Assembly (NCBI GenBank): GCA_029782355.1 | Contig: JAKOUY010000031.1 | Location: forward strand, 124,001-188,000 | Length of the DNA: 64,000 nucleotides | Direction: 5' to 3' | Source of the DNA: Actinomycetes bacterium | GTDB taxonomy: Bacteria; Actinomycetota; Acidimicrobiia; Acidimicrobiales; Ilumatobacteraceae | Shown: piece after piece, positions 4,340 through 25,341 of the stretch | Layout: each line of letters begins with the position of its first letter | How positions within the stretch are numbered: position 1 is the stretch's first letter | The notes under the pieces: generated by a model | The model's input: only the letters and a program-made list of their open reading frames with translations | What the model was told of the DNA's origin: nothing | The model's database searches: none | Program-made: the position numbers and the translations under genes

Positions 4340-4609
4340 ATGCTGAGCGAGCACCGCCCGGACGACCGTCGCGCCCGCCCGGCGGTCGGCCGATTCGCTC
4401 GGTCCTGCCATCGGGGCATCGTCGTGCTCGGGATCAACGGCCCGGAGCTGCTGGTGGGAAGCGCCGCTGCAGCGTGGGTGCGGAGCGAGCAGGAGCCGAG
4501 CATCCGGTTGCTGATCGATTCGATGATCGCCGATGGGTGCGAGCGGGCATGGGCCGAGGACGCCGTAGCAGGACTGGTCGACGCAGGAGTGCTGGTGATC
4601 GACCGGTGA
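4340..4609 (+). CDS. PqqD-like small protein (RiPP recognition element type)
   Basis: 89 residues. The pattern ELLVGSAAAAWVR, a short helix-rich stretch, then AEDAVAGLVDAGVLVI matches the winged-helix PqqD fold that binds leader peptides in RiPP pathways; sequence similarity is weak. The ATG at 4340 is chosen because a -10-like TAGGTT at 4327-4332 sits 7 nt before it, suggesting a leaderless mRNA. The stop overlaps the GTG of the nucleotidyltransferase (GTGA), so the two are translationally coupled. Families of this kind were catalogued beside HprK-related kinases as the 'HPr-rel-A system', whose function is unknown. Confidence 0.65.
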   Translation: MLSEHRPDDRRARPAVGRFARSCHRGIVVLGINGPELLVGSAAAAWVRSEQEPSIRLLIDSMIADGCERAWAEDAVAGLVDAGVLVIDR

Positions 4610-5745
4610 GGCCGCCAACTGCCGCTCACGGCGCGGCGGCACTGGGGCAATCCGACTCGGGGTGGGCGAGCTCGTTCGTCGTGTCGATCAGCGGGCACGA
4701 CCTGGATCGCCGGTGTGGGCAGGTGTCGCTGCCGGACGGCTCGTCCATCGACGCCCGTCGGTTCGCTGCGCTCGTCCAACATGCCCGAGCCGTGCGCGCC
4801 GAGCCACTGCTCGGTGCGTGGGCCACCGACTCCCTCGACGAGGTGTCGCTGGGCCCCGTCTTCGATGACCTGTGGCGTGCCGAGGAGCGTTCGCTGTCGC
4901 TGGTCGTCATGCTCGAGTGGGAGCTGTGCGCGATGGCCGAGCGACTCGAACGAGCGGGAGTTCCGTTCCGCGTGCTGAAAGGCCCGGCGATCGCTCACCT
5001 CGACGAGCGCATCCCGTCGATGCGACCGTTCGGCGACCTCGACCTCCTCGTCCGTTCGGCGGACATCGCCCGGGCGATCGACGTCGTCACCGCCGCCGGC
5101 GGGACCCGCCGGATCGCCGAACCGAGGCGAGGGTTCGATCGGCGGTTCTCCAAAGGCGTCAGCTTCGGATTCGAGCGCAACCTCGAGGTAGACCTGCACC
5201 GCACGCTGGCACTCGGGGTGTTCGGACTGACCATCGACCTCGACGAGCTGTTCGAGGGGACGCAGACCCTGTCGGTCGCCGGCATGCCGCTCGCCGCGCT
5301 GGACCGTCCATCGAGGTTCCTCCACGCCTGCCTCCACCTCGTGCTCGGCGGCCCGTGGGACCGTCCGTCGCTCTACCGCGATGTCATGCTGACCGTGCCC
5401 GTCGACGAGCCCGAGGCCGCGCTGGTCGCCGAACGGGCGGCCCGCTGGCGGTTGACGGCCGTGGTCCAGCACGCCATGCACATGGTCCGACAGGCATGCG
5501 CCTGGTTGCCGCCGGAGACGACCGCGGCGCTGACCGTCACCCCGGCCAGCCGGGAGCAGCGGGCCTGGCTGGCGACCGTGTTGGATCACCGGCGGCTGGC
5601 CGGCCACCGCCAGTCAGTGAGGGTCATCCGCGGGGTGCGGGCCAAGCTGGCCTACACCGCGAGCGTGGCTGCTCCCCGAGCACCCGGGCATACGTCCGTG
5701 GTCGCCCGGGTCCGTCTCGGCCTGAACGAGCTGTTCGGGTCGTGA
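4606..5745 (+). CDS. Nucleotidyltransferase family protein (NTP_transf_5 type), locus 1
   Basis: 379 residues from a GTG that overlaps the preceding stop. The family signature is visible: VLKGPA near residues 123-128 followed by RPFGDLDLLV near 140-149, giving the Asp-x-Asp metal-binding pair of the pol-beta-like nucleotidyltransferase fold. A later HACLHLVLGG segment and an Arg-rich C-terminus are also typical. It presumably transfers a nucleotide to a protein, peptide or small molecule; the substrate is not known. It sits between a PqqD-like protein and a PqqD-HprK fusion, and a paralogue at 13139-14221 has the same kind of partners. Confidence 0.82.
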   Translation: MRPPTAAHGAAALGQSDSGWASSFVVSISGHDLDRRCGQVSLPDGSSIDARRFAALVQHARAVRAEPLLGAWATDSLDEVSLGPVFDDLWRAEERSLSLVVMLEWELCAMAERLERAGVPFRVLKGPAIAHLDERIPSMRPFGDLDLLVRSADIARAIDVVTAAGGTRRIAEPRRGFDRRFSKGVSFGFERNLEVDLHRTLALGVFGLTIDLDELFEGTQTLSVAGMPLAALDRPSRFLHACLHLVLGGPWDRPSLYRDVMLTVPVDEPEAALVAERAARWRLTAVVQHAMHMVRQACAWLPPETTAALTVTPASREQRAWLATVLDHRRLAGHRQSVRVIRGVRAKLAYTASVAAPRAPGHTSVVARVRLGLNELFGS

Positions 5746-5752
5746 CCCGACG

Positions 5753-6979
5753 ATGAATCGGCGACCTCGCCTCCGAACGGACCTGCTCGCTGCGCCGATC
5801 GAGGACCAGGTCCTGGTTGTCGATGGGGTCAGCCATCGGTCGCACCTGCTCAGCCCGCTGGCATGGTTCGTGGCGCAGGCATGTGACGGCTCACGTCGCC
5901 CGTCGGAGCTGACCGGTCTGGTTGCCGGCGAAGCGGGCACATCGCCGGCGGGCACGGCCACGGCGGTCGCCGCAGTGCTCGAGGAACTGCGCTCGGCATC
6001 GCTCGTCACCGTCGAGCCGCCGGCCGACGCGGCCACGGGTCCGACGCGGTCTCCATCCCTGATCGGGGTTGCTCCTCGCGGCCGGGCCGACCGTGGACCG
6101 ACCCTGCCGCAAACCCGCGCGTACCGGATGGCTGCGTGGCAGTTCCGCGTCGTCGGCCCTCGCGACTTCGTCGGAGCAGCGCGGGCCGTGCTGGGCGTGT
6201 GCGATCGCCCGGCCCCCTCCCTCCCCGTCCATCGCTATGTGGTGCGGCCCGGTCGATGCGGGTTGCGGGTGTCGATCGACGGATGTCCGGTCAGTCACGC
6301 CATGACAGCCGGAGACGCGCTCGCCTGGATGTTGTGGCACGCCAACCACCAGGCAGCCAACTCCGTGAGCGACGGGTGTGTGATGCACGCTGCCGTCGTC
6401 GCGATCGGCGCTGGTTGCGTGCTGATGCCGGCGATCTCGGGATCGGGAAAGTCGACGTTGGCCGCGGCGATGTCCGGGCGCGGTCACCCCTGTCTCAGCG
6501 ATGAGCTGGCGGTGGTCTCTCGGCGCCCGGGCGGAATCCGGGTTCGAGGCGTGCGCCGGGCGATCGCCCTCGAGCCGTCCAGTCGGGAGTTGTTCGGGGA
6601 GACGGCGGTTCTGCTCGAGGCGGACGATCCGGTTGCCGGTCACGGGGCCTGGTACCGAGACCCCGGACCCCGATTGGGTGGGGGCGCTCGCCGGCTGACC
6701 GCGGTGGTGATGCCCTCGTATCGTCCCGGGTCGTCGCTCAGCTGGCGAACCGTCGGGCCGGCGCGGGCCGCGCTGGACCTCACCCGGCATGCGGTCCAGC
6801 TGACCCAGGCCGGCCTGGAGTCGCTGGTCGAGGTGGCCACGACCGTGCCCGCTCTGGAGCTCGTCCACGGCGACGCTCACGCAGCGGCGCAGGCGATCGA
6901 AGACGACCACCAGGAGTGGTGTTCGGCCGCGCAAGCGGATAGCGTCCCGGTCGGGTCGGTCGAGGCGAGACGACCGTGA
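5753..6979 (+). CDS. PqqD-like domain fused to an HPr kinase-related protein, locus 1
   Basis: 408 residues, starting 7 nt after the nucleotidyltransferase stop. Residues 1-88 look like a second PqqD-type winged helix (SHLLSPLAWFVAQACDGSRR, later VLEELRSASLVTV). Residues from about 125 on are HprK-like: MHAAVVAIGAG near 211-221, Walker A SGSGKSTL near 229-236, then CLSDELAVV near 247-255 in the place of the HprK acidic motif. Classical HprK phosphorylates Ser-46 of HPr, but this branch lacks the rest of that protein. Fusion of a peptide-binding domain to a kinase-like domain suggests a peptide or protein substrate delivered by the PqqD part. That function is inferred. Confidence 0.78.
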   Translation: MNRRPRLRTDLLAAPIEDQVLVVDGVSHRSHLLSPLAWFVAQACDGSRRPSELTGLVAGEAGTSPAGTATAVAAVLEELRSASLVTVEPPADAATGPTRSPSLIGVAPRGRADRGPTLPQTRAYRMAAWQFRVVGPRDFVGAARAVLGVCDRPAPSLPVHRYVVRPGRCGLRVSIDGCPVSHAMTAGDALAWMLWHANHQAANSVSDGCVMHAAVVAIGAGCVLMPAISGSGKSTLAAAMSGRGHPCLSDELAVVSRRPGGIRVRGVRRAIALEPSSRELFGETAVLLEADDPVAGHGAWYRDPGPRLGGGARRLTAVVMPSYRPGSSLSWRTVGPARAALDLTRHAVQLTQAGLESLVEVATTVPALELVHGDAHAAAQAIEDDHQEWCSAAQADSVPVGSVEARRP

Positions 6980-6997
6980 CGAAGGGATGAGGATCGG

Positions 6998-7576
6998 GTG
7001 GAAACCGATCGACGGACGATGCTGAAGCGAGCGGTGATCGGCACCGCGGTTGGATGGGCTGCTCCGCAGATCGTGTCCACCGAGCCGGCCTGGGCGATGA
7101 CCTGCTGCCCACGAACGGTCACCGTGCCGTTCCAGGTCCAGGTGGTGACCAGCTGCGGTGTCCAGACGCAGGGCCCCGCCGGCGGGACTGCCTGCTACCG
7201 CGAGATCCGCGGGACCGTCACGGGCTTCTGCCTGCCGCGCACCGCGACCAAGGTGTACCTCTCCCTCACCGCCACCGGCGGCGATCCTGGGTACGACGAC
7301 GGGATGTACGCCGTGATCACCCCGTCCGGCGGGGCATCGACGACGCTGGCGTGGAACACCTACGGGACCCAGTGCGTGCCACCCGGCGTGACGTCGGTCC
7401 GCAAACCGGTCGTCCCCGGTGGCTGCGGTGCGGCGAACAACGGCAGCCCGGGCTACGACGTCACGGCCTCCTTCCGGCCGTGCGTGTCCTACACGGTCAG
7501 CATCGGCGCCTTCAACCAGATGAACGGCTCGGTGAACAACCTGACTTGGACGAACGTCTTTCTCCGAGTCACGTGA
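6998..7576 (+). CDS. Tat-exported Cys-rich protein associated with the HprK/PqqD locus
   Basis: 192 residues from a GTG at 6998. The N-terminus has a twin-arginine motif (DRRTMLKRA, residues 4-12), then a weakly hydrophobic stretch and an Ala-Trp-Ala site near residue 33, so export folded through Tat is likely. The mature domain begins TCCPRTVTVPF and carries about eight cysteines, glycine/threonine-rich beta-like segments and no recognised enzyme motif. It is the last gene of the operon, 18 bp after the HprK fusion, so it may be the modified or exported product of the system. I do not recognise the family. Confidence 0.75.
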   Translation: METDRRTMLKRAVIGTAVGWAAPQIVSTEPAWAMTCCPRTVTVPFQVQVVTSCGVQTQGPAGGTACYREIRGTVTGFCLPRTATKVYLSLTATGGDPGYDDGMYAVITPSGGASTTLAWNTYGTQCVPPGVTSVRKPVVPGGCGAANNGSPGYDVTASFRPCVSYTVSIGAFNQMNGSVNNLTWTNVFLRVT

Positions 7577-11193: not shown

Positions 11194-12027
11194 TCAGCCG
11201 GAGCTGACGAGCCCGAGGGCAGCCGCCGCCAGCAGCATGCCGCCGAGCTGGGGGCGGCTGACCCGCTCGCCGTCCACGGTGGTGGCCAGCACGACCGTGC
11301 TCACCGGGTACATGGCCGACACCACGGCCACGATCGACAGCATCCCGTGGCGAGTTGCGGCCAGGTAGCAGACGTTGGCGAGCATGTCGAGGATGCCGGC
11401 CACGACGGCGATGGGTACGGCCCGGCGGGCGACTGCGGTGACGCCCCGCCGCACCTGCCAGGCGAGCACGGGCGCGGTGATGCCCACGGACCCGAGCCGC
11501 GCCCCGACCAGCGGCCACAGCCCGCTGCGGTGCGGGGCGTGGGACAGCAACACGAAGATCAGCCCGAACCCCAACCCGCCCAGCAGCGAGAGCGTCAGCT
11601 GGCGACGACCGATTCGCTGGTGGGCCGCGCCGACGATCCCGCCCACCAGCAGCACGGCCGCGGCAGCGAGGGCGATGCCCACCCAGGCCCGGGCACTCGG
11701 CCGCTCCCCCTGGGCGACGCCGACGATCACCGGGACGGTGAGGCTGACGACGGCGGTGGTCGGGGCGACGACGGACATCGACCCGCCGGCCAGCGCGGCG
11801 TAGAAGCAGACGATGCCGAGGACGCCGGCGCAGCCGCCGGCCAGCCCCCATCCGAGGCCGCCGAGCGGATCGGCCAGGACCAGCGCGGCGATGGTGACGA
11901 GCACGAGGCTCGCCGACTGGCCGACCACGGCGACGGCCAGGGACGCCATCCGCCGGGAGGCGTGGCCACCCGTCCAGTCGCCCAGGCCGTAGACCACGGC
12001 CGCGATCGCCGCGAGGAGCACACCCAC
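11194..12027 (-). CDS. EamA/DMT-family membrane transporter
   Basis: 277 residues made of two repeats of about five hydrophobic helices, the duplicated EamA layout of drug/metabolite transporters. Recognisable family features are an N-terminal LAAIAAVVYGLGDWTGG, an end of repeat one with VPVIVGVAQGE, and the closing PQLGGMLLAAAALGLV. Substrate is unknown. The start is 17 bp from the stop of the dioxygenase gene and on the same strand, so it is probably the last gene of a nucleotidyltransferase-dioxygenase-EamA operon. In that setting it could export a product of the HprK/PqqD locus; this is inference from position only. Confidence 0.85.
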   Translation of the reverse strand: MGVLLAAIAAVVYGLGDWTGGHASRRMASLAVAVVGQSASLVLVTIAALVLADPLGGLGWGLAGGCAGVLGIVCFYAALAGGSMSVVAPTTAVVSLTVPVIVGVAQGERPSARAWVGIALAAAAVLLVGGIVGAAHQRIGRRQLTLSLLGGLGFGLIFVLLSHAPHRSGLWPLVGARLGSVGITAPVLAWQVRRGVTAVARRAVPIAVVAGILDMLANVCYLAATRHGMLSIVAVVSAMYPVSTVVLATTVDGERVSRPQLGGMLLAAAALGLVSSG

Positions 12028-12044: not shown

Positions 12045-13142
12045 TTACGGGCCGACGAGGCGAGCCGTGGGCACCCGGCCGGCGGCGTCGACCACGTCGA
12101 ACAGCCGGAGCGGGCCGCCGGGCACGGCGGCCAGGTCGGCGAACGCGGCGTCGACCGCCGGCACTGACCGCCGCCGGGTGACCGCACCGGCGAAGCTCCC
12201 GGCCTGGATCGGCAGGGTCAGGAACAGGCGGTCCGTCTCGGTGGGCCGCTGGGCGCGGTGCAGGCCGCGCGGGTTGGAGAGGTAGGTGGTGCCGGCCGGT
12301 CCGGTCAGCCGGCGTGGTTCGACCCGGCCGAAGCGTCGAGCGACGGCGTCGTCGGCCTCGCCGAGGTCGACGCGCCGGAAGCCGCGGCCGCGCAGCGCGC
12401 CGAGGCGATGCGATCCGGGGAGGTACTCCATGGGAGCGGCTCCGTCATCGACATCGGTGAGGTTGATGTGGACCCGGATCGCCCCGAGACCGTCGAAGTC
12501 GGTGTGCCACGTCCGGGCGAAGCGAGGCGAGGACTCGGTAGGACTGTGACTCGACGGGACGCACGACCAGTTGAGCTGCGAGGTGTGCACCACGGCACCC
12601 AGCCCGTACAGCGCGCCGACCAGCTGGTGCAGCCGCCGGCTGGCCATCAGGGATTGGATCGGGCCCTGGGCCCAGGCGAAGTCACCGGGGATCTGGACCA
12701 GGATCGCGTCGGCCGGCCGATCGGCGTACGTCCCCCGGGTCATCGACCCGTCGGCGTGGCGGACCACACCCGGCGCCGTGGTGGCGAACTCGCGCAGGCG
12801 GCGCACGGCATCGGCGTCGAGCACGGGGTCGATGCGTGCCAGGCCGACGCGTTGCAACTCGGCCAGCGCGGCGCGGTCGGCGCTCGAAAGCCCGGCACGC
12901 ATCCGCCGGGCCGACACCCGGTCCGGCCCGGGGACGGCCCGCAGCGCGGCTCGCAGCACCTCACTGGTGACGCCCGCCGTGCGGACGTGCAGCCGGCGGG
13001 CGTGACGGTAGGTCACCGGCGACGACGGCAGCCCGCGCCGGGCCCGGGCCAGGTCGTCGCCCAAGCCGCGGCCGGCCCGCCACGCCCGGCGGAGGAGCGC
13101 GGCGGAGCGCCTCGACCGGGCGGTGACGATCGGGGCGGTCAT
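12045..13142 (-). CDS. Phytanoyl-CoA dioxygenase-family 2-oxoglutarate oxygenase, locus 2
   Basis: 365 residues. The Fe(II) facial triad of the PhyH family can be placed: His213 and Asp215 in TWHTDFDG, and distal His295 in NPRGLHRAQ, with the conserved turn PMEYLPGSHRLG between them. The first 80 or so residues are Arg-rich and may be an extra domain. Such enzymes hydroxylate small molecules, lipids or peptide side chains. Its start overlaps the nucleotidyltransferase stop by 4 bp, placing it in the HprK/PqqD locus, where it is a natural candidate for tailoring the 40-residue peptide. The substrate is not shown by the sequence. Confidence 0.82.
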   Translation of the reverse strand: MTAPIVTARSRRSAALLRRAWRAGRGLGDDLARARRGLPSSPVTYRHARRLHVRTAGVTSEVLRAALRAVPGPDRVSARRMRAGLSSADRAALAELQRVGLARIDPVLDADAVRRLREFATTAPGVVRHADGSMTRGTYADRPADAILVQIPGDFAWAQGPIQSLMASRRLHQLVGALYGLGAVVHTSQLNWSCVPSSHSPTESSPRFARTWHTDFDGLGAIRVHINLTDVDDGAAPMEYLPGSHRLGALRGRGFRRVDLGEADDAVARRFGRVEPRRLTGPAGTTYLSNPRGLHRAQRPTETDRLFLTLPIQAGSFAGAVTRRRSVPAVDAAFADLAAVPGGPLRLFDVVDAAGRVPTARLVGP

Positions 13143-14221
13143 CGACGGTCAACGTATCGAACGAGCGTCTTCCCGCCGGCCATCGCGCCGCGCTGGGCGC
13201 TGCGGGCCAGCCGGCCGGCGCTGCCGACCCACCACCAGCGACGGGGCACCGTGGAGCGGGCGGCCGCCTTGACCGACACCAGGTTGCGCCCGGTGGTGGC
13301 CAGGTAGGACGCCACCGACGGGGTCATCCGAGCGTCCTGGAGGGCGCGCACCCAGCGGTTCGACGACGGTGCGGACACCTCGTCGAGCGCGCATGGGTCG
13401 CCGCCGGCGAGCACCCGCTCGGTCAACCGGTGGGTCCGCCCGACGGCGGCCGAAGCGTCGGCGAGGCCTGCGGCGCGCTGCCAGCCGGCACCGGCGCGCT
13501 CGACCAGCAGGTGGGCGTCGACGAGGGTGCGCAACGACGACCACCCGTCCTTGGCGGCGTGCAGGCAGACGTGGGCCAGCGCGGCGTCCGGGTCCAGGGT
13601 CCGCACCGCCGCACCGGCGAGGACGACGTCGACCGAGCGGGCCAACAGCTCGGCGGTGGCCAGCCTGCGAGGGTGGCCGGGCGTGATCCGCCAGTGCAGG
13701 TCGAGGTAGCCACCATGACCGGCGAGGGTCAGCTCGTAGGACGTGAACCGGACCACCCGGCTGAGCAGATCACTGACCCGCGGGTCCGGCAGGTTGGGCA
13801 CGACGGCGTAGCCGGACCGACAGAGCACGTCGATGGCCTGCCCGAGCCGAGCCGGTTGGACCAGCAGGTCGACATCGACGCCGACGCGATCGGCGGCCGG
13901 CCGACCGGTGAGCGCGCCGAGGGCCACGCCCTTCAGGCACAGGCTGGGGATCCCGGCATCACCGAGCAGGGTCGTGGTCCGCACGCACGTCGCCTCGGCC
14001 TGGGCGCCGCTGACCAGCAGCGAGCGCCGGAGCACGGCGAGGGTTCGCTCGGCGGCATCGGTGACCGGAGCGCCCTGAGTGGTGGCAGCGAGCACGTTCG
14101 GCACGACGTCGTGGTCGATCGCCAGCGTCACCAGATCGGTGTCGATCGGGGTCGTGGGCGCGTCGGCGATGCCGAGCCCGGACCGCACGACGGCCACCAG
14201 CGCTGCCGCCGTCGCCCCCAC
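13139..14221 (-). CDS. Nucleotidyltransferase family protein (NTP_transf_5 type), locus 2
   Basis: 360 residues from a GTG at 14221. Key motifs are CLKGVAL near residues 95-101 and DRVGVDVDLLV near 111-121, giving the Asp-x-Asp metal site, and later LDLHWRI and HVCLHAAKDGW, all typical of this family. It is a distant paralogue of the protein at 4606-5745. Longer starts up to 14341 would run through the start of the divergent HprK-like gene, so the GTG leaving a 34-bp gap is preferred. The stop overlaps the dioxygenase start. The substrate is unknown; a peptide or its kinase partner is possible. Confidence 0.82.
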   Translation of the reverse strand: MGATAAALVAVVRSGLGIADAPTTPIDTDLVTLAIDHDVVPNVLAATTQGAPVTDAAERTLAVLRRSLLVSGAQAEATCVRTTTLLGDAGIPSLCLKGVALGALTGRPAADRVGVDVDLLVQPARLGQAIDVLCRSGYAVVPNLPDPRVSDLLSRVVRFTSYELTLAGHGGYLDLHWRITPGHPRRLATAELLARSVDVVLAGAAVRTLDPDAALAHVCLHAAKDGWSSLRTLVDAHLLVERAGAGWQRAAGLADASAAVGRTHRLTERVLAGGDPCALDEVSAPSSNRWVRALQDARMTPSVASYLATTGRNLVSVKAAARSTVPRRWWWVGSAGRLARSAQRGAMAGGKTLVRYVDRR

Positions 14222-14241
14222 GGCGGCAACTGTAGGCCCGG

Positions 14242-14255: not shown

Positions 14256-15092
14256 GTGACCCTGTCCGACCTGCTCCCCGCCGGGTTGGTGAGCGCCGCG
14301 GTTCGGGTGGGTGCCGTCCCGGCCACGTTGGACGGCGGCACCGAGTTGAACGAGTGGCTGGTGGCTCGCGACGACGCCGCCCTGTACCGGATGGCCGGGT
14401 TCCGGATGCTGGTCCGAGGGACGCACGAGGTCGTCGTCGAGCCGCTCGGAACGACCTCGCTGGACGAGGTCGCCGTGCACGTCTACGGCATGGCCGTCCG
14501 GTCACTGCTGCTGCACGGTGGTGTGTTCTGCCTGCACGCCAGCGCCGTCCGCCTGGGCGGCACCGTGCTGGCAGTGGGTGGGCGCAGCGGCGCCGGGAAG
14601 AGCACGACGGCCATGGCCCTCGCCGCCCACGGCGAGCTCCTGGTCGACGACGTCGTCCCCGTCACCGTCACCGACGGGGTGGCGCTGGTCCACCCGTTCC
14701 ACCGACCCGTGCACCTCGACCGGTCTCCGAGCCACGGCGACGCCGGCGGCGGCGGGCGGATCACGTCCGGCCCACGCGGCAAGCAGGCGGTCGAGCCGGG
14801 CGCGGCGGACCGGCGACCGTGCCCGCTCCAGCGACTGGTGGTGATCGAGCTGGGACCGCCCGGGACGGCCGTGTCGGCCCGCCCGGTCGGCGGGGCCGAG
14901 CGGCTGCGCTGGATCGTCCGGCTGTCCAACTCCACCGGCCTGGCATCGCTCGGGCGGCGGGCTGCGGGGTACTTCGCCTGGGCCGCGGCCGTGGCCGACG
15001 CCGTGCCAACCGCAGTCGTGACCCGCCCGGACGGATCCGACACGCTGGGCGAGGTGGTCGCCATGATCCGTGATGGTCGGTGTGACCTGTGA
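14256..15092 (+). CDS. HPr kinase-related P-loop protein, locus 2
   Basis: 278 residues from a GTG at 14256. HprK features are clear: LHASAVRLGG near 93-102, Walker A VGGRSGAGKSTT near 107-118, and LLVDDVVPV near 128-136 matching the catalytic acidic pair of HPr kinase. The N-terminal third has no PqqD domain, unlike the locus-1 homologue. True HprK phosphorylates HPr, but related kinases in some lasso-peptide clusters phosphorylate a serine of the peptide. It is followed by a 40-residue peptide and a PqqD protein, so a peptide substrate is the simplest guess. It is divergent from the nucleotidyltransferase. Confidence 0.82.
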   Translation: MTLSDLLPAGLVSAAVRVGAVPATLDGGTELNEWLVARDDAALYRMAGFRMLVRGTHEVVVEPLGTTSLDEVAVHVYGMAVRSLLLHGGVFCLHASAVRLGGTVLAVGGRSGAGKSTTAMALAAHGELLVDDVVPVTVTDGVALVHPFHRPVHLDRSPSHGDAGGGGRITSGPRGKQAVEPGAADRRPCPLQRLVVIELGPPGTAVSARPVGGAERLRWIVRLSNSTGLASLGRRAAGYFAWAAAVADAVPTAVVTRPDGSDTLGEVVAMIRDGRCDL

Positions 15093-15098
15093 TACAGT
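15093..15098 (+). promoter_or_regulatory. -10-like TACAGT for the 40-residue peptide gene
   Basis: TACAGT lies 34 nt before the peptide ATG, leaving a 5' leader of about 28 nt that holds the ribosome binding site GGAGGG (15120-15125). A separate promoter here would let the peptide be made in excess over the modifying enzymes, as is usual for RiPP precursors. A -35 box is not clear. Confidence 0.35.
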
Positions 15099-15132
15099 TC
15101 GCCGCTTCAACCATTGAGCGGAGGGCAGTGAG

Positions 15133-15255
15133 ATGGACCAGGTCATCAAGCAGGAGTGGGACGTTCCGGCCGCGGAGGCGTTGACCGACGTGGAGAGCCG
15201 GGCCGACCGGCCCGACGTCACCATGCGCAACGGGCAGACGTCCGTTCCCGCCTGA
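15133..15255 (+). CDS. 40-residue peptide, candidate RiPP precursor
   Basis: A short gene with its own strong ribosome binding site GGAGGG 7 nt before the ATG. The peptide starts MDQVIKQEWDVPAAEALTDV and ends MRNGQTSVPA. It has no signal peptide and no cysteine, is acidic in the first half, and has Thr36 and Ser37 near its end. EWDVP (residues 8-12) gives aromatic-x-x-Pro, which resembles the YxxP leader motif that PqqD-like domains recognise in lasso-peptide precursors. It lies between an HprK-like kinase gene and a PqqD gene. It is the best candidate substrate of the locus; cleavage site and final product are unknown. Confidence 0.72.
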   Translation: MDQVIKQEWDVPAAEALTDVESRADRPDVTMRNGQTSVPA

Positions 15256-15289
15256 GCCCCGCCCGGCCGATCCCCGCCCGGCGGACTCC

Positions 15290-15565
15290 GTGGTGAGTCA
15301 CCCGCCGCGCTATCGGCGCGCCCCGGGAGCGGCGACGGCGTCGGTCGACGGCGACACCGTGGTCGTGTCGCCTGCGGATCTGCGCTATCACGCGCTGAAC
15401 CGTTCGGGGGCTGGGTTGTGGTCCGTGCTGGTCGATCCCGTCACCGTGGACGAGATCGTCGGCCACCTGACGGCCCGGTTCGAGGTGGACGACGGGCGGT
15501 GTCGTGTCGACGTCGAGGATGCCCTGGCGCACTTCGCCGAGATCGGGATCGTCGAGGTCGTCTAA
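15290..15565 (+). CDS. PqqD-family peptide chaperone (RiPP recognition element), locus 2
   Basis: 91 residues from the first of two adjacent GTG codons. It fits PqqD well: a beta-hairpin region DGDTVVVSP, then LRYHALNRSGAGLWSVL, VTVDEIVGHLTARFEVDD, and the final DVEDALAHFAEIGIVEVV, the standard winged-helix order. PqqD proteins bind leader peptides and present them to modifying enzymes. It starts 34 bp after the 40-residue peptide. The TAA stop is the first half of an inverted repeat that belongs to the metY promoter. Confidence 0.85.
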   Translation: MVSHPPRYRRAPGAATASVDGDTVVVSPADLRYHALNRSGAGLWSVLVDPVTVDEIVGHLTARFEVDDGRCRVDVEDALAHFAEIGIVEVV

Positions 15566-15602
15566 ATCCGACTTGGTAGGTCGGGATTTACTCGGGTACG
15601 CT
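15563..15602 (+). promoter_or_regulatory. metY promoter with overlapping inverted-repeat operator
   Basis: TAAATCCGAC (15563-15572) and GTCGGGATTTA (15580-15590) form an inverted repeat around TTGGTAG. TTGGTA (15573-15578) also serves as a -35-like box, 18 bp before the -10-like TACGCT (15597-15602), which is 8 nt from the metY ATG. A factor bound to the repeat would cover the -35, so repression, probably in response to sulphur status, is likely. Rrf2/CymR- or TetR/McbR-type regulators bind comparable dyads. Confidence 0.55.
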
Positions 15603-15610
15603 CACGGTCC

Positions 15611-16939
15611 ATGAGTGACGCTTGGGGTTTCGAGACACGCCAGATCCACGTCGGCGGTGAGCCCGACCCGACCACCGGGGCTCGGGCGGTGCCCATCTAC
15701 CAGACGACCAGCTACGAGTTCCGCGACGCGGCGCACGCCCAGAACCTGTTCGCCCTGGCCGAGGTCGGCAACATCTACACCCGGATCATGAACCCCACGC
15801 AGGGGGCGCTGGAAGCCCGGATCAACTCGCTGGAGGGCGGCTGCACCACGGCCATCGGGCTGCCCGGGGCCTTGGCCGTCGCCAGCGGGCAGTCGGCCGA
15901 GACCCTCGCCATCCTGACCCTGGCCGAGGCCGGCGATCACCTCGTGGCCAGCCCGTCGCTGTATGGCGGCACGTACAACCTGCTGCACCACACGCTGCCG
16001 AAGATGGGCATCCAGGTCACCTTCGTCGACGATCCCCACGATCTGCAGCAGTGGGCCGCCGCCGTCCAGCCGAACACCAAGGCGTTCTTCGGGGAGGTCC
16101 TGGCCAACCCGCGCAACGACGTGTTCGACATCGAGGGCGTCGGCGGTGTGGCCCATCAGCACGGGGTACCGCTCATCGTCGACAACACCGTGGCCACGCC
16201 GTACCTGGTGCGTCCGCTCGAGTGGGGCGCCGACATCGTGGTCCACAGCCTGACCAAGTTCTGCGGCGGGCACGGCACCTCGATCGGCGGGGCGATCATC
16301 GACGGCGGGACCTTCGACTTCGGTGCCAGTGGTCGCTTCGCCAACTTCACCGAACCCGATCCCAGCTACCACGGCCTGGCCTACTGGCCGGCCCTGGGCC
16401 ACGGCTCGTTCATCCTCAAGGCCCGGGTGCAGCTGCTGCGCGACCTGGGCATGGCGATCTCGCCGTTCAACGCCTTCTTGATCCTGCAGGGCCTGGAGAC
16501 GCTGAGCCTGCGGATGGAGCGGCACTTCGCCAACGCCTCCCGGGTGGCCGACTACCTGGCCAACCATCCGAAGGTGGACAGCGTGGCCTTCGCCGGGCTG
16601 GCGTCGAGCCCGTGGCACGACCGGCTGACGCGCTACGGCGGCGGTCGCGGCTACGGCAGCATCATCGCCTTCGACCTGAAGTCGGCCGACCCGGAGTCGG
16701 CCCGCACGGACGGCCAGCGCTTCGTCGAGGCGCTCAGCCTGCACAGCCACGTGGCCAACATCGGCGACGTCCGCAGCCTGGTGATCCACCCAGCGAGCAC
16801 GACTCACAGCCAGCTGACCCCCGAGGAGCAGGCGGCCAGCGGCGTCAACCCGGGCCTGGTCCGCCTCAGCGTCGGGCTGGAGACGATCGACGACATCCTC
16901 GCCGACCTGGACACCGGGTTCGCCGCCATCGGCGGCTGA
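15611..16939 (+). CDS. metY: O-acetylhomoserine sulfhydrylase (aminocarboxypropyltransferase)
   Basis: PLP enzyme making homocysteine from O-acetylhomoserine and sulphide (direct sulfhydrylation), feeding methionine synthesis. The 442-residue length and start (WGFETRQIHVGGEPDPTTGAR) are typical of MetY rather than the roughly 380-residue MetB. Visible are the phosphate-binding YTRIMNPTQGALEARI, the stacking Tyr region PSLYGGTYNLL and the PLP lysine at about residue 216 in HSLTKFCGGHG. Its ATG is 8 nt from a -10-like box, so the mRNA is probably leaderless. An inverted repeat overlaps its promoter. Confidence 0.95.
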   Translation: MSDAWGFETRQIHVGGEPDPTTGARAVPIYQTTSYEFRDAAHAQNLFALAEVGNIYTRIMNPTQGALEARINSLEGGCTTAIGLPGALAVASGQSAETLAILTLAEAGDHLVASPSLYGGTYNLLHHTLPKMGIQVTFVDDPHDLQQWAAAVQPNTKAFFGEVLANPRNDVFDIEGVGGVAHQHGVPLIVDNTVATPYLVRPLEWGADIVVHSLTKFCGGHGTSIGGAIIDGGTFDFGASGRFANFTEPDPSYHGLAYWPALGHGSFILKARVQLLRDLGMAISPFNAFLILQGLETLSLRMERHFANASRVADYLANHPKVDSVAFAGLASSPWHDRLTRYGGGRGYGSIIAFDLKSADPESARTDGQRFVEALSLHSHVANIGDVRSLVIHPASTTHSQLTPEEQAASGVNPGLVRLSVGLETIDDILADLDTGFAAIGG

Positions 16940-16997: not shown

Positions 16998-17921
16998 TCA
17001 GATCCCGAAGTGGGCCAGCCACTTCTTGACGACGGGGATGTCGACGCGCTGGTACCCGCCGAGGTACCGGCAGTTCTCCGCACCGTTGAGGGCGTAGCTG
17101 GTCACCGTGACGATCACACCCTTGAGCAGCGACGGGCCGCCCGAGTCACCGAAGCAGGTCCCGCCGGTGCCCTTGGTGTTGTTCGGGTTGCCGTTCATCT
17201 GGACCACCTGAGCGGTCATCTTCTGGCCTTGCTGCTCGGCGTACTCGCGCTCGATCGGATCGCTCGTGGCTTCCGGCTTCTGCGGCCCGCTCAGCGGCTT
17301 CTGCACGTGCGTTCCGTACCCGATGGACGTGAAGATGGTCTTGTTCAGCGTCGGCTGCGCATAGTTGTTCAGCATGTTGGTCGGCGCGACGTTGAGGGTG
17401 TCTCGGTCGTTCACCGGAGCATCGAGGACGATGACCCCGACGTCGTTCCAGTTCTTCAGGTCGGTGAAGTGGGAGTAGCCGGGGTGGGTGTAGGACTGCC
17501 CGCTGACCACCGTCCACCTCGAGACCGACCCCCCGTCCGGGTCGTAGATGCCGGCGGGCAGCGCGTCGCCCGGGTGCAGGTACCCGATCTCCGGGTACCC
17601 GGTGTTGGAGTTGCCCGTGTTGGGGTCATGATCGTCGGCCCGCGGGAGCCGCAACGATGGCTTGAAGTCGAAGAACACGAGGGTCTTGCCCCTGTTGCCG
17701 TCGGTGCAGTGGCCAGCCGTGATCACGACGGTCGGTGACACGAGGGTCCCGGTGCACCGGAAGCGGCTGTCGCCCTGGTAGTAGAGCAGCATGCCCACGC
17801 CGTTGTGGGCGCGGTCGGGCGCGCCGCCGGTGATGGCGACGGCGGGAGCGGCAGCGATGCCGGCCCCGGCTGCGACGGCGACGCCCGCGGCGATTGCCGT
17901 GCGAAGTTTCCTACGGATCAT
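16998..17921 (-). CDS. Secreted trypsin-like serine protease (S1 family)
   Basis: 307 residues with a Sec signal peptide (RRKLRT then an Ala/Val-rich core, cleavage near PAVA-ITGG). The mature N-terminus ITGG resembles the IVGG activation end of trypsins. The catalytic triad can be placed: His71 in ITAGHC, Asp160 in NWNDVGVIVLD and Ser260 in CFGDSGGPSLL. Cys56/Cys72 and Cys256/Cys282 or so could form the usual disulphides. It probably acts outside the cell on proteins. It stands alone, divergent from the MMPL exporter across a gap of 130 bp. Confidence 0.92.
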   Translation of the reverse strand: MIRRKLRTAIAAGVAVAAGAGIAAAPAVAITGGAPDRAHNGVGMLLYYQGDSRFRCTGTLVSPTVVITAGHCTDGNRGKTLVFFDFKPSLRLPRADDHDPNTGNSNTGYPEIGYLHPGDALPAGIYDPDGGSVSRWTVVSGQSYTHPGYSHFTDLKNWNDVGVIVLDAPVNDRDTLNVAPTNMLNNYAQPTLNKTIFTSIGYGTHVQKPLSGPQKPEATSDPIEREYAEQQGQKMTAQVVQMNGNPNNTKGTGGTCFGDSGGPSLLKGVIVTVTSYALNGAENCRYLGGYQRVDIPVVKKWLAHFGI

Positions 17922-22168: not shown

Positions 22169-24160
22169 TCAGTGGTCGGCAGCGCCCGCGGCCGCGGCCC
22201 CGGCCGCGCCGCCATCGGCGGCGGGGTGGGTCTCCTCATGGGCGGCGGCGGGGGTCCCCTCATGGGCGGCGGGGTGGGGGGCGTCATGGGCGGCGGGGTC
22301 CGCGACGGGGTCGGCGTGGGCGCGGCGCGCCTCGGCGATGCGGCGGCAGGTCTCGGCGATGCCGCCGTCGTGGTACAGGTGGTCGAGGGTCAGCTGGGCG
22401 GTGCGGCGCCAGTTCGGCTCTTCCTGGAAGGTGCCGGGGGTGTTCTGCGGGCGGGTCTCCAGCCAGAAGTCCTCGAGATTGAAGATGGCCACCCAGGCCT
22501 CCTGGTCGGCAAGGTCCTCGGCGACGGCCACCATGGTTGCGCCGAGGTTGTCTGGCTGATGCAGCCGACCCTCGGCGACCATCCGATCGACGACCCGTTG
22601 GCGTTCGTCGACCCGCCGGGTGAGCCGGCGCTGACGGGTGGCGTCGTCGATCAGACCGTGGCGATGGGCCCGCTCCACGTCGACCCCCTCCCACCAGCCG
22701 GCGAAGGGCACGCCGTCATGGGTGGTGAGCATGGCGACCTCGTGGCGGGATGACCGGACCATGCGGTCCGTGCCGTACGTCGCCAGCACGTCGGCGGCCA
22801 CGTAGATGCCGAGCAGGTGGTGGTCCGCCAACCCGTCGTTGACCGCCGGCGGGACGATCCCGAGGTTCTCGCCGACGACCATCGCACCGGCCAGCGTGGC
22901 CTCGAGGCAGACGACGGCGAGCAACTCCTCGAGCGGGTAGCTGACGTAGGCGCCGTCGGTGGCGGTCAACCCGTGGGGCACCCACCACTGCCGCGCCAGA
23001 CCCATGACGTGGTCGAGACGGAGCAGCTTGGCGAATCGCAGGTGGTGGCGGATCGTCTCCCGGAAGTAGCGGTGGCCGGTCGCCCGTGATCGCGCCGGAT
23101 GCACCGGCGGGAACCCCCAGTCCTGACCACCGACGAACACCGGATCCGGCGGCGCCCCGACGGAGACACCGGCCACGAACAGATCGTGCTCGCGCCAGAC
23201 GTCGAACCCGTCTCCGTGGGCGCCGAGGGCGACGTCCAGCGCCAGGCACTGTCCCCGTCGGGCGGCTGCGGCGGCGACGGCACCAAGCTGGCGGTCGGCC
23301 AGCCACGACCCGACGAGATGCCGTCGCTGGACGCGGACGTCGATGTCCCGACTGGCCGGAGCGGTGCCGGGTGCCGTGGACCACGTCCGCCAGTTCCGAC
23401 CCAGGCGGGCCTGGGCACCGCGATAGGCGGCGTACTCCTGGAGGAGGGGATGCTCGGCGACGTACCGCTGCAGCTCGGGGGACGGCCACCACGCCTCGGC
23501 CATGGCGTCGAGCCGGGCGGCGTGGATGCGCTGCAGCAGCGGGTAGTCGAGCAGACCGTCAAGCGGCTGCGGGCACTCCTCGGCGGACCGCGGCGGCGCA
23601 CCGGCGGCGTCGAGATCGACGTACAGCTCGTTCCACATCCTCCGGGTGACCGGGGAGTACGGGCTCCAATCGGCTGGCTCGTCGAGGTACATCGGGAGCA
23701 ACGGCAAGGTGAGCAACGTGTCCCCACCACGCCAGTGCAGCCAGTCGAACAGGCTGTCCAGATCGGTGTAGGTGGCCAGCGAGGTGTGCTCGTTGCGACG
23801 CAGCGAGTACAGCGGCAGGAACACACCCCACCGACCGGGGGCGCTCACCGGGGCGTACTGCGGGGCGGCGATCACCGTCCCGATCGGTCGGTCACCGAGC
23901 AGCAGGGTGTGGTACCCGAGCGGCGTCGGCACTCGCACCGACGGGTGGTCGACACCGGATTCGAGCACGATACGAGCGCCGGCGGGCAACGCCGGCAGCT
24001 CCCCGTCCCAGGCGACGACGACGTCGAAGCGGTGTTCCGGGCCACTCCCCGTGTCGCCGAGCGCGCCGCGGACCCCGTCCAACGCCGCGGCCGAGCTGTG
24101 GATCAGGGTGCCCGTGGGGTCGAGATAGCTGGGGAGCACCGCCGGGGGGAGCTCGGTCAC
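22169..24160 (-). CDS. malQ: 4-alpha-glucanotransferase (amylomaltase)
   Basis: Transfers alpha-1,4-glucan chains between maltodextrins, releasing glucose, and completes use of imported maltodextrins. The 663 residues from a GTG overlapping the ATPase stop carry GH77 signatures: SPYSPVTRRMWNELYVDL, the nucleophile segment LLRLDHVMGLARQWWVP, the acid/base VVGENLGIVP, and the late TTHDGVPFAGWW. An N-terminal beta domain of about 130 residues precedes the barrel, as in actinobacterial MalQ. The last 50 or so residues are a low-complexity His/Ala/Pro/Glu tail encoded by a short DNA repeat, probably dispensable. It is the last gene of the mal operon. Confidence 0.93.
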   Translation of the reverse strand: MTELPPAVLPSYLDPTGTLIHSSAAALDGVRGALGDTGSGPEHRFDVVVAWDGELPALPAGARIVLESGVDHPSVRVPTPLGYHTLLLGDRPIGTVIAAPQYAPVSAPGRWGVFLPLYSLRRNEHTSLATYTDLDSLFDWLHWRGGDTLLTLPLLPMYLDEPADWSPYSPVTRRMWNELYVDLDAAGAPPRSAEECPQPLDGLLDYPLLQRIHAARLDAMAEAWWPSPELQRYVAEHPLLQEYAAYRGAQARLGRNWRTWSTAPGTAPASRDIDVRVQRRHLVGSWLADRQLGAVAAAAARRGQCLALDVALGAHGDGFDVWREHDLFVAGVSVGAPPDPVFVGGQDWGFPPVHPARSRATGHRYFRETIRHHLRFAKLLRLDHVMGLARQWWVPHGLTATDGAYVSYPLEELLAVVCLEATLAGAMVVGENLGIVPPAVNDGLADHHLLGIYVAADVLATYGTDRMVRSSRHEVAMLTTHDGVPFAGWWEGVDVERAHRHGLIDDATRQRRLTRRVDERQRVVDRMVAEGRLHQPDNLGATMVAVAEDLADQEAWVAIFNLEDFWLETRPQNTPGTFQEEPNWRRTAQLTLDHLYHDGGIAETCRRIAEARRAHADPVADPAAHDAPHPAAHEGTPAAAHEETHPAADGGAAGAAAAGAADH

Positions 24161-25341
24161 CGCAGTGGCTCCCCCGACGTGCGCTCGAAGAAGTGGCACC
24201 GGTCGGTCTGGACCCGCAGGCGGACGTGGTCGCCCACGCTGATCCGGGCGATCCCATCGACCCGGGCGACGACCACCGTGCCGTCGCTGCCGGGAATGCC
24301 GCCGGTGTCGTCGTGCTCGGCCAGCTCGCGGGTGTCCTCGGTGTCGACCGGTGGGACCGGGACCTCGAAGTGGATGTGCACCTCGCTGCCCATCGACTCC
24401 ACCAATCGAGCGGTCACCTCGATCTGCTGGTCGTCGGCCACCACATCGCCCGGGAGGCTGAAGAACTCGGGGCGGATCCCCATGATCACCGTGTCGCCGA
24501 CGTGGTCGGCGACCCGCGGATACGCGGCCAGCGCGCCCGGGCCGAGGGACAACCGGTGCGGCCCGATGGCCACGCCCAACCCGCCCGAGTCGCGCCGCTC
24601 GACGGTGGCCTCGAGCAGGTTCATCGATGGGCTGCCGATGAACCCGGCAACGAACAGGTTGGCCGGTCGCTCGTACAGGTCGTGGGGGGCGGCGACCTGC
24701 TGGAGCACGCCCTTGCGCATCACCGCCACCCGGTCGGCCATGGTCATCGCTTCGACCTGGTCGTGGGTCACGTACACCGTGGTGACCCCCATGTCGTGCT
24801 GCAACCGAGCGATCTCACTGCGCATCTGGACGCGCAGCTTGGCGTCGAGGTTGGAGAGTGGTTCGTCCATCAGGAACACCTGCGGATCGCGCACGATCGC
24901 CCGACCCATGGCCACCCGTTGGCGTTGCCCGCCCGACAGCATCTTCGGCCGCCGATCGAGCAGATCGCGCAGGCCGAGGATGTCCGCCGCCCGCTTGACC
25001 CGCTGGTTGATCTCGTCCTTCGGCATCTTGCGCAGCGACAGCCCGAAGGAGATGTTGTCGGCCACGCTCATGTGCGGGTACAGGGCGTAGCTCTGGAAGA
25101 CCATGGCGATGTCCCGCTCGCGCGGCGGGACCTCGTTGACCCGCCGGCCACCGATGCGGAGCTCCCCCTCGCTGATGTCCTCGAGGCCGGCCACCATCCG
25201 CAGCGCGGTGGACTTGCCGCACCCCGAGGGTCCGACGAGCACGAGGAACTCGCCGTCGCCGATGTCGAGCGACAGGTTGTCGACGGCACGGAACCCGTTG
25301 TCGTAGACCTTGGAGATCTGATCCAGTTCGACGTCAGCCAT
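24157..25341 (-). CDS. Maltodextrin ABC transporter ATP-binding protein, MalK/UgpC type
   Basis: 394-residue ATPase that energises the MalFG permease. Walker A GPSGCGKST at residues 37-45, FQSYALYPHMSVADN, signature LSGGQRQRVAMGRAI, Walker B FLMDEPLSNLDA and switch VTHDQVEAMTMADR are all present, followed by the C-terminal OB-fold regulatory domain (MGIRPEFF). Its start overlaps the amylase stop and its stop overlaps the malQ start. It is very similar to the ATPase at the left edge of the window. Gene order malEFG-amylase-ATPase-malQ makes maltodextrin the most likely substrate. Confidence 0.95.
   Translation of the reverse strand: MADVELDQISKVYDNGFRAVDNLSLDIGDGEFLVLVGPSGCGKSTALRMVAGLEDISEGELRIGGRRVNEVPPRERDIAMVFQSYALYPHMSVADNISFGLSLRKMPKDEINQRVKRAADILGLRDLLDRRPKMLSGGQRQRVAMGRAIVRDPQVFLMDEPLSNLDAKLRVQMRSEIARLQHDMGVTTVYVTHDQVEAMTMADRVAVMRKGVLQQVAAPHDLYERPANLFVAGFIGSPSMNLLEATVERRDSGGLGVAIGPHRLSLGPGALAAYPRVADHVGDTVIMGIRPEFFSLPGDVVADDQQIEVTARLVESMGSEVHIHFEVPVPPVDTEDTRELAEHDDTGGIPGSDGTVVVARVDGIARISVGDHVRLRVQTDRCHFFERTSGEPLR

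Follow-up and report, generated by a model that had tools for sequence, protein, structure and literature searches.

A conserved small gene beside HprK-like kinase and PqqD-type RRE genes in Acidimicrobiales is a candidate precursor gene of a linear, phosphorylated RiPP

A 40-codon open reading frame between a kinase gene and a PqqD gene raises two questions: whether it is a gene at all and, if so, what the neighbouring enzymes would make of its product. The frame lies on the forward strand of the window (the whole 64,000-nucleotide stretch of DNA analysed here), with an ATG start at 15133 and a stop codon ending at 15255, and it encodes MDQVIKQEWDVPAAEALTDVESRADRPDVTMRNGQTSVPA. The kinase gene ends at 15092 and the PqqD gene starts at 15290, all three on the plus strand, as the preliminary description had placed them, and the strong ribosome-binding site that it had proposed was found at 15120-15125 (+), where GGAGGG stands 7 nt before the ATG. 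A -10-like box belonging to the small gene had also been claimed. A promoter scan of 14900-15700 returned no site, so a separate promoter for the peptide gene is unsupported, and the best -10-like candidate by eye was TACAGT at 15093-15098, agreeing at 4/6 letters. The GC contents at the three codon positions were 0.70/0.45/0.95 in the peptide frame, 0.78/0.55/0.91 in the kinase gene and 0.77/0.46/0.86 in the PqqD gene, indicating a coding-like pattern in the peptide frame that resembles those of both neighbours.

When 248 genomes of the order (its own included) were searched with the peptide, only two gave matches at E < 0.01, its own and G044; some match at E <= 1 was present in 58 of the 248, the remainder at E 0.0103 or worse. 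G044 belongs to the same order and showed three tandem matches (E 1.5e-4 to 5.5e-4), with 42-43% identity over the matched stretch; these homologues are 40-45% identical to the window peptide. At this locus (L059, 19 kb read), the three peptide genes follow one another at distances of 10 and 8 nt, and the peptides and homologues of all four enzymes discussed below are packed within 4.1 kb. A kinase search was run separately and matched 22/248 genomes of the order at E <= 1e-5; its best foreign match was the same place in G044 (E 8.1e-43). Between the window and G044, identity was 48% for PqqD (91 columns), 40% for the kinase and 44% for the PhyH-type oxygenase, and the G044 NTP_transf_5 protein matched its window counterpart at E 6e-55. 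The gene order and strands of the enzyme set differ between the two loci, indicating that the linkage of the set is not leftover synteny. The window peptide aligned with the three G044 homologues at scores of 81, 75, and 79, compared with 53-55 for the best shuffles, and 0/20,000 shuffles per comparison reached the observed scores. Aromatic-x-x-Pro motifs of the form [WYF]xxP are frequent in short frames, which would suit a chance open reading frame, but the homologues in the same gene context, the shuffles and the coding-like GC pattern contradict this explanation and leave it scarcely credible. The 40-codon frame at 15133-15255 is a real gene, conserved in two genomes of the order and accompanied in both by one and the same set of four enzyme genes.

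Further members were sought with the peptide profile (A1). Among 396 genomes of the phylum, 11 matched at E <= 0.01, including its own, and no further clear member was found; the ten others lay at E 0.0017-0.0096, and three of the ten were examined. The matches in G359 and G053 were short stretches inside larger ORFs, and nothing better than E 0.36 was present at the G006 locus. Among 61 relatives, four matched, including its own, again with no further clear member: the best of them, G009 (2.3e-4), had a different context, with no kinase, PqqD, NTP_transf_5 or PhyH match in the 14-17 kb around its two loci, and the G901 match aligned over a short stretch only. In the family of G044, one of four genomes matched, namely G044 itself. 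The plasmid records searched held no match for the peptide family. A 62-base degenerate peptide pattern matched three places in a contig collection, which translated as unrelated ORFs, and no kinase or PqqD homologue was found in the 8 kb around each. The small number of members found indicates that the peptide family is rare in the genomes searched.

The four peptides share a conserved body and differ in their tails. In their alignment, residues 1-34 (15133-15234, +; W9xxP12xA14, L17T18, S22R23xD25xP27D28V29xxR32N33G34) showed no gaps in 4/4, and M1, W9, P12, L17, T18, S22, R23, D25, P27, D28, V29, R32, N33, and G34 were invariant; P39 was also aligned as invariant, yet it falls within the gapped tail. 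The tails after RNG have lengths of 6, 8, 12, and 12 residues: QTSVPA (15235-15252, +) in the window peptide, and ISGEPNVK, NDNGVVLSPVDT and NLSLSEPPDGPA in the homologues. This is the conserved leader with a variable C-terminus that the preliminary description had proposed to look for among homologues, and no frame-breaking indel was found in the body of any of the four. In pairwise comparisons of the G044 copies, 77, 73, and 77 of 81 nt of body DNA (counted from the codon that precedes Trp to the end of RNG) were identical, and for the tails 3531, 1328, and 2795 of 5000 shuffles scored as high as the real pair. With the body DNA near-identical and the tails at shuffle level, these recent duplicates have kept the body and replaced the tail. 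For the body, pN/pS between the window and G044 was 0.34-0.36/0.43-0.47, and the G044 copies differed from one another by 2-5 amino-acid-changing versus 0-1 silent changes; these codon counts show no strong purifying selection, the roughly 20 silent sites being too few to show it. The invariant hydroxyl residues of the four peptides are Thr18 and Ser22. At least one Ser and a Pro occur in every tail, with no conserved Ser/Thr position there, and the C-terminal residues are A, K, T, and A, with a terminal Ser in 0/4.

With regard to recognition, the preliminary description had likened a W-x-x-P in the peptide to the motif gripped by PqqD-like domains. The sequence WDVPAA, encoded at 15157-15174 (+), is a candidate RRE-binding motif that fits the consensus [Y/W]xxPx[L/V/I/A/F/Y] given for most discrete lasso RREs (PMC13381572), and a survey of RREs lists W/Y/LxxP/L/I recognition sequences (PMC12710340); both papers are cited here and below from partial texts, in which WxxP is documented as an RRE-binding motif, in line with the earlier comparison. 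The consensus was fitted by 4/4 peptides (WDVPAA, WVRPSA, WVRPSV, and WARPSV). By itself, an aromatic-x-x-Pro is weak evidence and common by chance, [WYF]xxP occurring in 31/160 window ORFs of 30-60 aa. The fuller [YW]xxPx[LVIAFY] occurred in 7/160 of these ORFs, three times within the first 20 residues, with the peptide itself counted. A longer motif, [YW]xxPx[LVIAFY]xx[LI][ST], chosen after the peptides were known, was found in 32/3450 ORFs of 30-130 aa in 563 kb, corresponding to nine distinct peptides because loci overlap; since many loci had been picked by kinase similarity, this count is no independent enrichment test. Seven of the nine lie in kinase/PqqD loci: the window, the three G044 copies, and one each in G057 (L066), G024 (L064) and G169 (L060). 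The other two were judged to be chance occurrences: one belongs to L043, itself only weak as a kinase locus, and the other, in L065, lies opposite a long ORF.

Several related loci were seen alongside. The G024 peptide (L064 4610-4753, +) has 47 aa, stands beside two HprK-like kinases, carries W..P.L..LS and GGPWASYYE, and ends in GHS; its sequence resembles that of a lasso precursor whose last residue, Ser, could be phosphorylated. The peptides of G057 (L066 5061-5195, -), which adjoins PqqD, and of G169 (L060 421-576, -) both lie in kinase loci and have WxxPxLxxL[ST] and a terminal Ser. In L062 (G108) and L063 (G024), sulfotransferase genes stand beside HprK-like kinases and Asn_synthase genes, and L063 additionally has the lasso B2 family Transglut_core3. 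The window itself holds a second kinase/RRE-type set at 4474-7576 (+), composed of an NTP_transf_5 gene (4474-5745), a PqqD-like domain (below cut-off) joined to a P-loop part that is HprK-like by eye (5753-6979, +), and an ORF with a Tat-like signal start, VETDRRTMLKRAVIGTAVGWAAPQIV (6998-7576, +). Contig C20 of the same genome (L065) carries a comparable set, including a Tat-like ORF (6815-7465) that resembles the one in the window.

The PqqD gene (15290-15565, +) encodes a discrete PqqD-type RRE (PF05402, 48.4 bits versus a cut-off of 23.4) with N37 and D74 at leader-contact positions. By sequence, the profile of the PqqD pair (A4) matched the solved RREs PbaB1 (9x90, the best, E 1.9e-10), TbiB1 (5v1u), LppB (9x8z) and TfuB1 (6jx3), with LppB scoring below PbaB1 and TbiB1; matches of PqqD to beta-catenin were weak (E 0.07 and worse) and were rejected. 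The 9x90 and 9x8z structures are complexes with leaders, and the LppB positions N33 and D70 are reported as deciding leader choice (PMC13381572). PqqD N37 aligns with LppB N33 (Gly in PbaB1), and D74 (Glu in G044) aligns with LppB D70 (Gln in PbaB1). TfuB1, which we take to be the same protein as FusB1, likewise has Asn and Asp at these two positions. For FusB1, binding of Tyr as well as Trp leaders is reported (PMC13381572). Two positions of the groove are unusual: Ala78 (Cys in G044) is Phe in PbaB1 and LppB, and Ser39 (Thr in G044) is Ile in PbaB1 and Val in LppB, with Leu and Thr, respectively, in TfuB1.

The gene at 14256-15092 (+) encodes an HprK-like kinase with the P-loop GAGKSTT, H94, K115, D131, and D132; its profile (A2) matched HprK structures over the P-loop region at E 6.1e-8, and its scores are below the curated cut-offs (Hpr_kinase_C, 20.6/33.3 bits in the window and 28.8/33.3 in G044). 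Lasso kinases are reported to have a His-Lys-Asp-Asp set (PMC9266682), and H94, K115, D131, and D132, invariant in 3/3, may correspond to it, having been matched without aligning lasso kinases.

On the opposite strand, just past the start of the kinase gene, an NTP_transf_5 nucleotidyltransferase is encoded at 13139-14224 (-), with PF14907 at E 3.5e-31 and an uncertain start codon, the ORF running to 14341; its G044 homologue matched PF14907 at E 5.9e-37, and both are above the Pfam cut-off. The gene overlaps by 4 nt that of a PhyH-type Fe(II)/2-oxoglutarate oxygenase (12045-13142, -), whose Pfam score is only just above the cut-off (22.5 versus 22 bits). The residues H213, D215, H295, and R305 (HxD...H...R), the iron- and 2-oxoglutarate-binding residues of the fold, were invariant in 6/6 aligned relatives. 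The model predicted from six sequences reached pLDDT 75.6 and pTM 0.79, a fold from two sequences (pLDDT 36.7) having been useless, and Foldseek matched it to SnoN, GriE, EctD and proline hydroxylase H11, with TM-scores of 0.39-0.46 by query length. A sequence search of solved structures gave no match for the PhyH protein or the nucleotidyltransferase, and the PhyH alignment found no relative in the contig collection. Close PhyH relatives (E <= 1e-15) were present in 2/395 genomes of the class. In the order, 6/397 genomes had a match at E <= 1e-10, the two close ones being G000 (the window's genome) and G044, both of which bear the peptide. Around the matches in the four distant genomes, the 7.8-16 kb read at each revealed no homologue of the kinase, PqqD or NTP_transf_5, two of these loci being whole short contigs of 7.8 and 10.4 kb.

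Beside the PhyH gene, an EamA-type membrane transporter gene (11194-12027, -) is a candidate exporter gene; the scanned G044 genes include no EamA match. The genes that flank the set are metabolic: one flank has acetolactate synthase and ketol-acid reductoisomerase, the opposite flank O-acetylhomoserine/O-acetylserine sulfhydrylase. A MalK-type ABC ATPase is encoded at 24157-25341 of the window. A trypsin-like protease with a signal-peptide-like start is encoded at 16998-17921 (-), 1.4 kb from the PqqD gene; it was set aside as a leader peptidase because none of the scanned G044 genes matched Trypsin. At both the window and the G044 locus, the scanned neighbouring genes yielded no dedicated protease or peptide exporter. 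This result, together with the HprK type of the kinase and the length of the conserved body, would fit an intracellular regulatory or adaptor peptide that serves the kinase and is phosphorylated like HPr, and is not a secreted natural product. Such a role is nonetheless unlikely, given that PqqD, NTP_transf_5 and an oxygenase stand in one cluster, that three tandem copies carry unrelated tails, and that a W/YxxP motif is present.

The reading that we prefer, at a probability of roughly 0.65, is that the gene encodes a RiPP precursor whose product is linear, phosphorylated and, probably, also capped and oxidised. Linearity is expected because neither a cyclase in the vicinity nor, in the window's genome, a lasso leader peptidase was found. 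In the proposed pathway, the discrete RRE (PqqD) would bind W9xxP12xA14 and the following strand (W9-T18) and present the peptide to the kinase. The HprK-like kinase would then place one or more phosphates on a hydroxyl, with Ser22 as first choice and a tail Ser as second. The NTP_transf_5 protein could add a sugar or nucleotide to the phosphate, as reported for PsmN, which in pseudomycoidin attaches hexose to a phosphate of this type; for PsmN, a nucleotide followed by a host glycosyltransferase was also allowed for. The PhyH protein probably hydroxylates an Asp, Asn or Pro, the candidates being the invariant Asp25, Pro27, Asp28, and Asn33 or a tail Pro.

The preliminary description had pointed to Thr36 and Ser37 as possible modification sites. 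We tentatively prefer Ser22 (codon 15196-15198, +), at somewhat less than even odds, as it is invariant in 4/4 and its spacing can be compared with known phosphosites. In the partial texts, the phosphosite is core Ser3 in LPP (PMC13381572) and Ser3 in Bsf lasso peptides. The spacing from Thr18 to Ser22 equals that from position -2 to Ser3 in Bsf numbering, which would put the cut after residue 19. However, such a cut would place Trp9 at -11, versus -15 to -17 in the three cases compared, and W9 lies 13 residues from Ser22, versus 18-19 from Tyr to phospho-Ser as counted from the LPP/Bsf numbering in the partial sources. Furthermore, L[T/S] at Trp+8/+9 also occurs in three other kinase-linked peptides, suggesting that Thr18 may belong to the RRE-bound strand. 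Trp9 at -11 and L[T/S] elsewhere weigh against a cut after residue 19, and for this reason the preference for Ser22 is kept tentative. A tail Ser or Thr is a plausible second candidate, at about one chance in three, and other sites take the remainder. The window tail has only six residues, and the four peptides come from only two of the genomes searched, three of the four being tandem copies. All invariant hydroxyl, Asp and Asn residues lie in the body, as would be expected if the body formed the product and the variable tail were a discarded follower, but the RRE motif sits in the body as well, and LPP and lasso precursors have a C-terminal core (PMC13381572); a discarded tail is quite improbable.

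A precursor of this kind could also belong to a lasso system whose cyclase and leader peptidase are encoded elsewhere in the genome. The RRE type and the [Y/W]xxPx[LVIAFY] leader motif are those of lasso systems, lasso clusters can include HprK-like kinases and nucleotidyltransferases, and contig C33 of the window's genome carries an Asn_synthase that is separated by about 5.5 kb from another PqqD. Of the Asn_synthase (PF00733) matches of this genome, a single one shares the contig of the peptide gene, at a distance of about 56 kb and with a score below cut-off; the others are on different contigs. However, the window's genome, which is 98% complete, gave no Transglut_core3 (B2, PF13471) match at E <= 0.001, whereas a lasso-type cluster in the order (L063 in G024) does show this family together with Asn_synthase. 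In G044, Asn_synthase gave partial matches on other contigs, the best at E 5.4e-7 over 60/354 positions. The peptides have no terminal Ser and seem to lack the Thr (rarely Ile or Val) that lasso leaders have at -2; the conserved Thr18 stands only 9 residues after Trp9, and no clear ring pattern was seen by eye. A lasso product is not supported, and we consider a lasso precursor very improbable.

Compared with known systems, the linear RiPP precursor proposed here comes closest in outline to the Linear Polyphosphorylated Peptides (LPPs; Popov et al. 2026, May), which are described in the partial text of PMC13381572 as restricted to Bacillota and of unknown biological role, with precursors that have a well-conserved N-terminal region and highly variable C-termini. 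Both systems have a discrete RRE, an HprK-like kinase, an NTP transferase, no macrolactam cyclase nearby, and one to three short precursors with [Y/W]xxP in a conserved N-terminus and variable C-termini (PMC13381572). Unlike the LPP motif YxxPxVLxHQxIxFETxxS, the motif here is W..P....LT...SR.D.PDV..RNG, with only [Y/W]xxP in common (PMC13381572). Neither an SpI-like peptidase nor an MsbA-like transporter was found among the genes scanned around the window or G044 locus, the conserved set includes a PhyH oxygenase, and the high GC of the genome suggests that the host is not a member of Bacillota. Because the family differs in three LPP features (the motif and, among the genes scanned nearby, the SpI peptidase and MsbA exporter) and PhyH is added, the family was not filed as LPP.

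The paeninodin/pseudomycoidin-type and Bsf lasso systems, as described in partial sources, likewise have an RRE (B1), an HprK-like kinase with His-Lys-Asp-Asp and a nucleotidyltransferase, and the paeninodin group also has a WxxP leader; the present system differs in having no B2 match in the genome, no cyclase nearby and no recognisable lasso ring sequence. According to the same sources, substrates of paeninodin-type kinases end in Ser, which holds for 0/4 of the present peptides versus 3/3 of the other kinase-linked candidates. In canucin, a partial source describes an Fe/2-oxoglutarate hydroxylase (CanE) that acts on a RiPP precursor, a role that PhyH may share, but no lasso machinery was found here. 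HPr-rel-A (TIGR04352/TIGR04353) also combines an HprK-related kinase with a PqqD-family chaperone, but the present proteins score far below its cut-offs (26/200 bits for TIGR04352 and 19.1/35 for TIGR04353).

Among the matches listed for open-access PMC (titles and abstract starts), no paper on the RRE-kinase-NTP_transf_5-PhyH set was found. It is conceivable, though we put it at less than an even chance, that these genes define a new linear RiPP family outside Bacillota, with HprK-like phosphorylation at an internal Ser22 phosphosite, NTP_transf_5 capping, PhyH hydroxylation and a diversified tail, which would have arisen independently of the LPPs from a shared stock of lasso-type RREs. The compact five-gene set makes RRE binding, phosphorylation, phosphate capping and hydroxylation separately testable, and the four natural tails form a set for probing substrate tolerance. 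If a second lineage indeed combines the RRE-kinase-NTP transferase logic with a precursor of another kind and an extra oxygenase, linear phosphorylated RiPPs would seem to have originated on more than one occasion.
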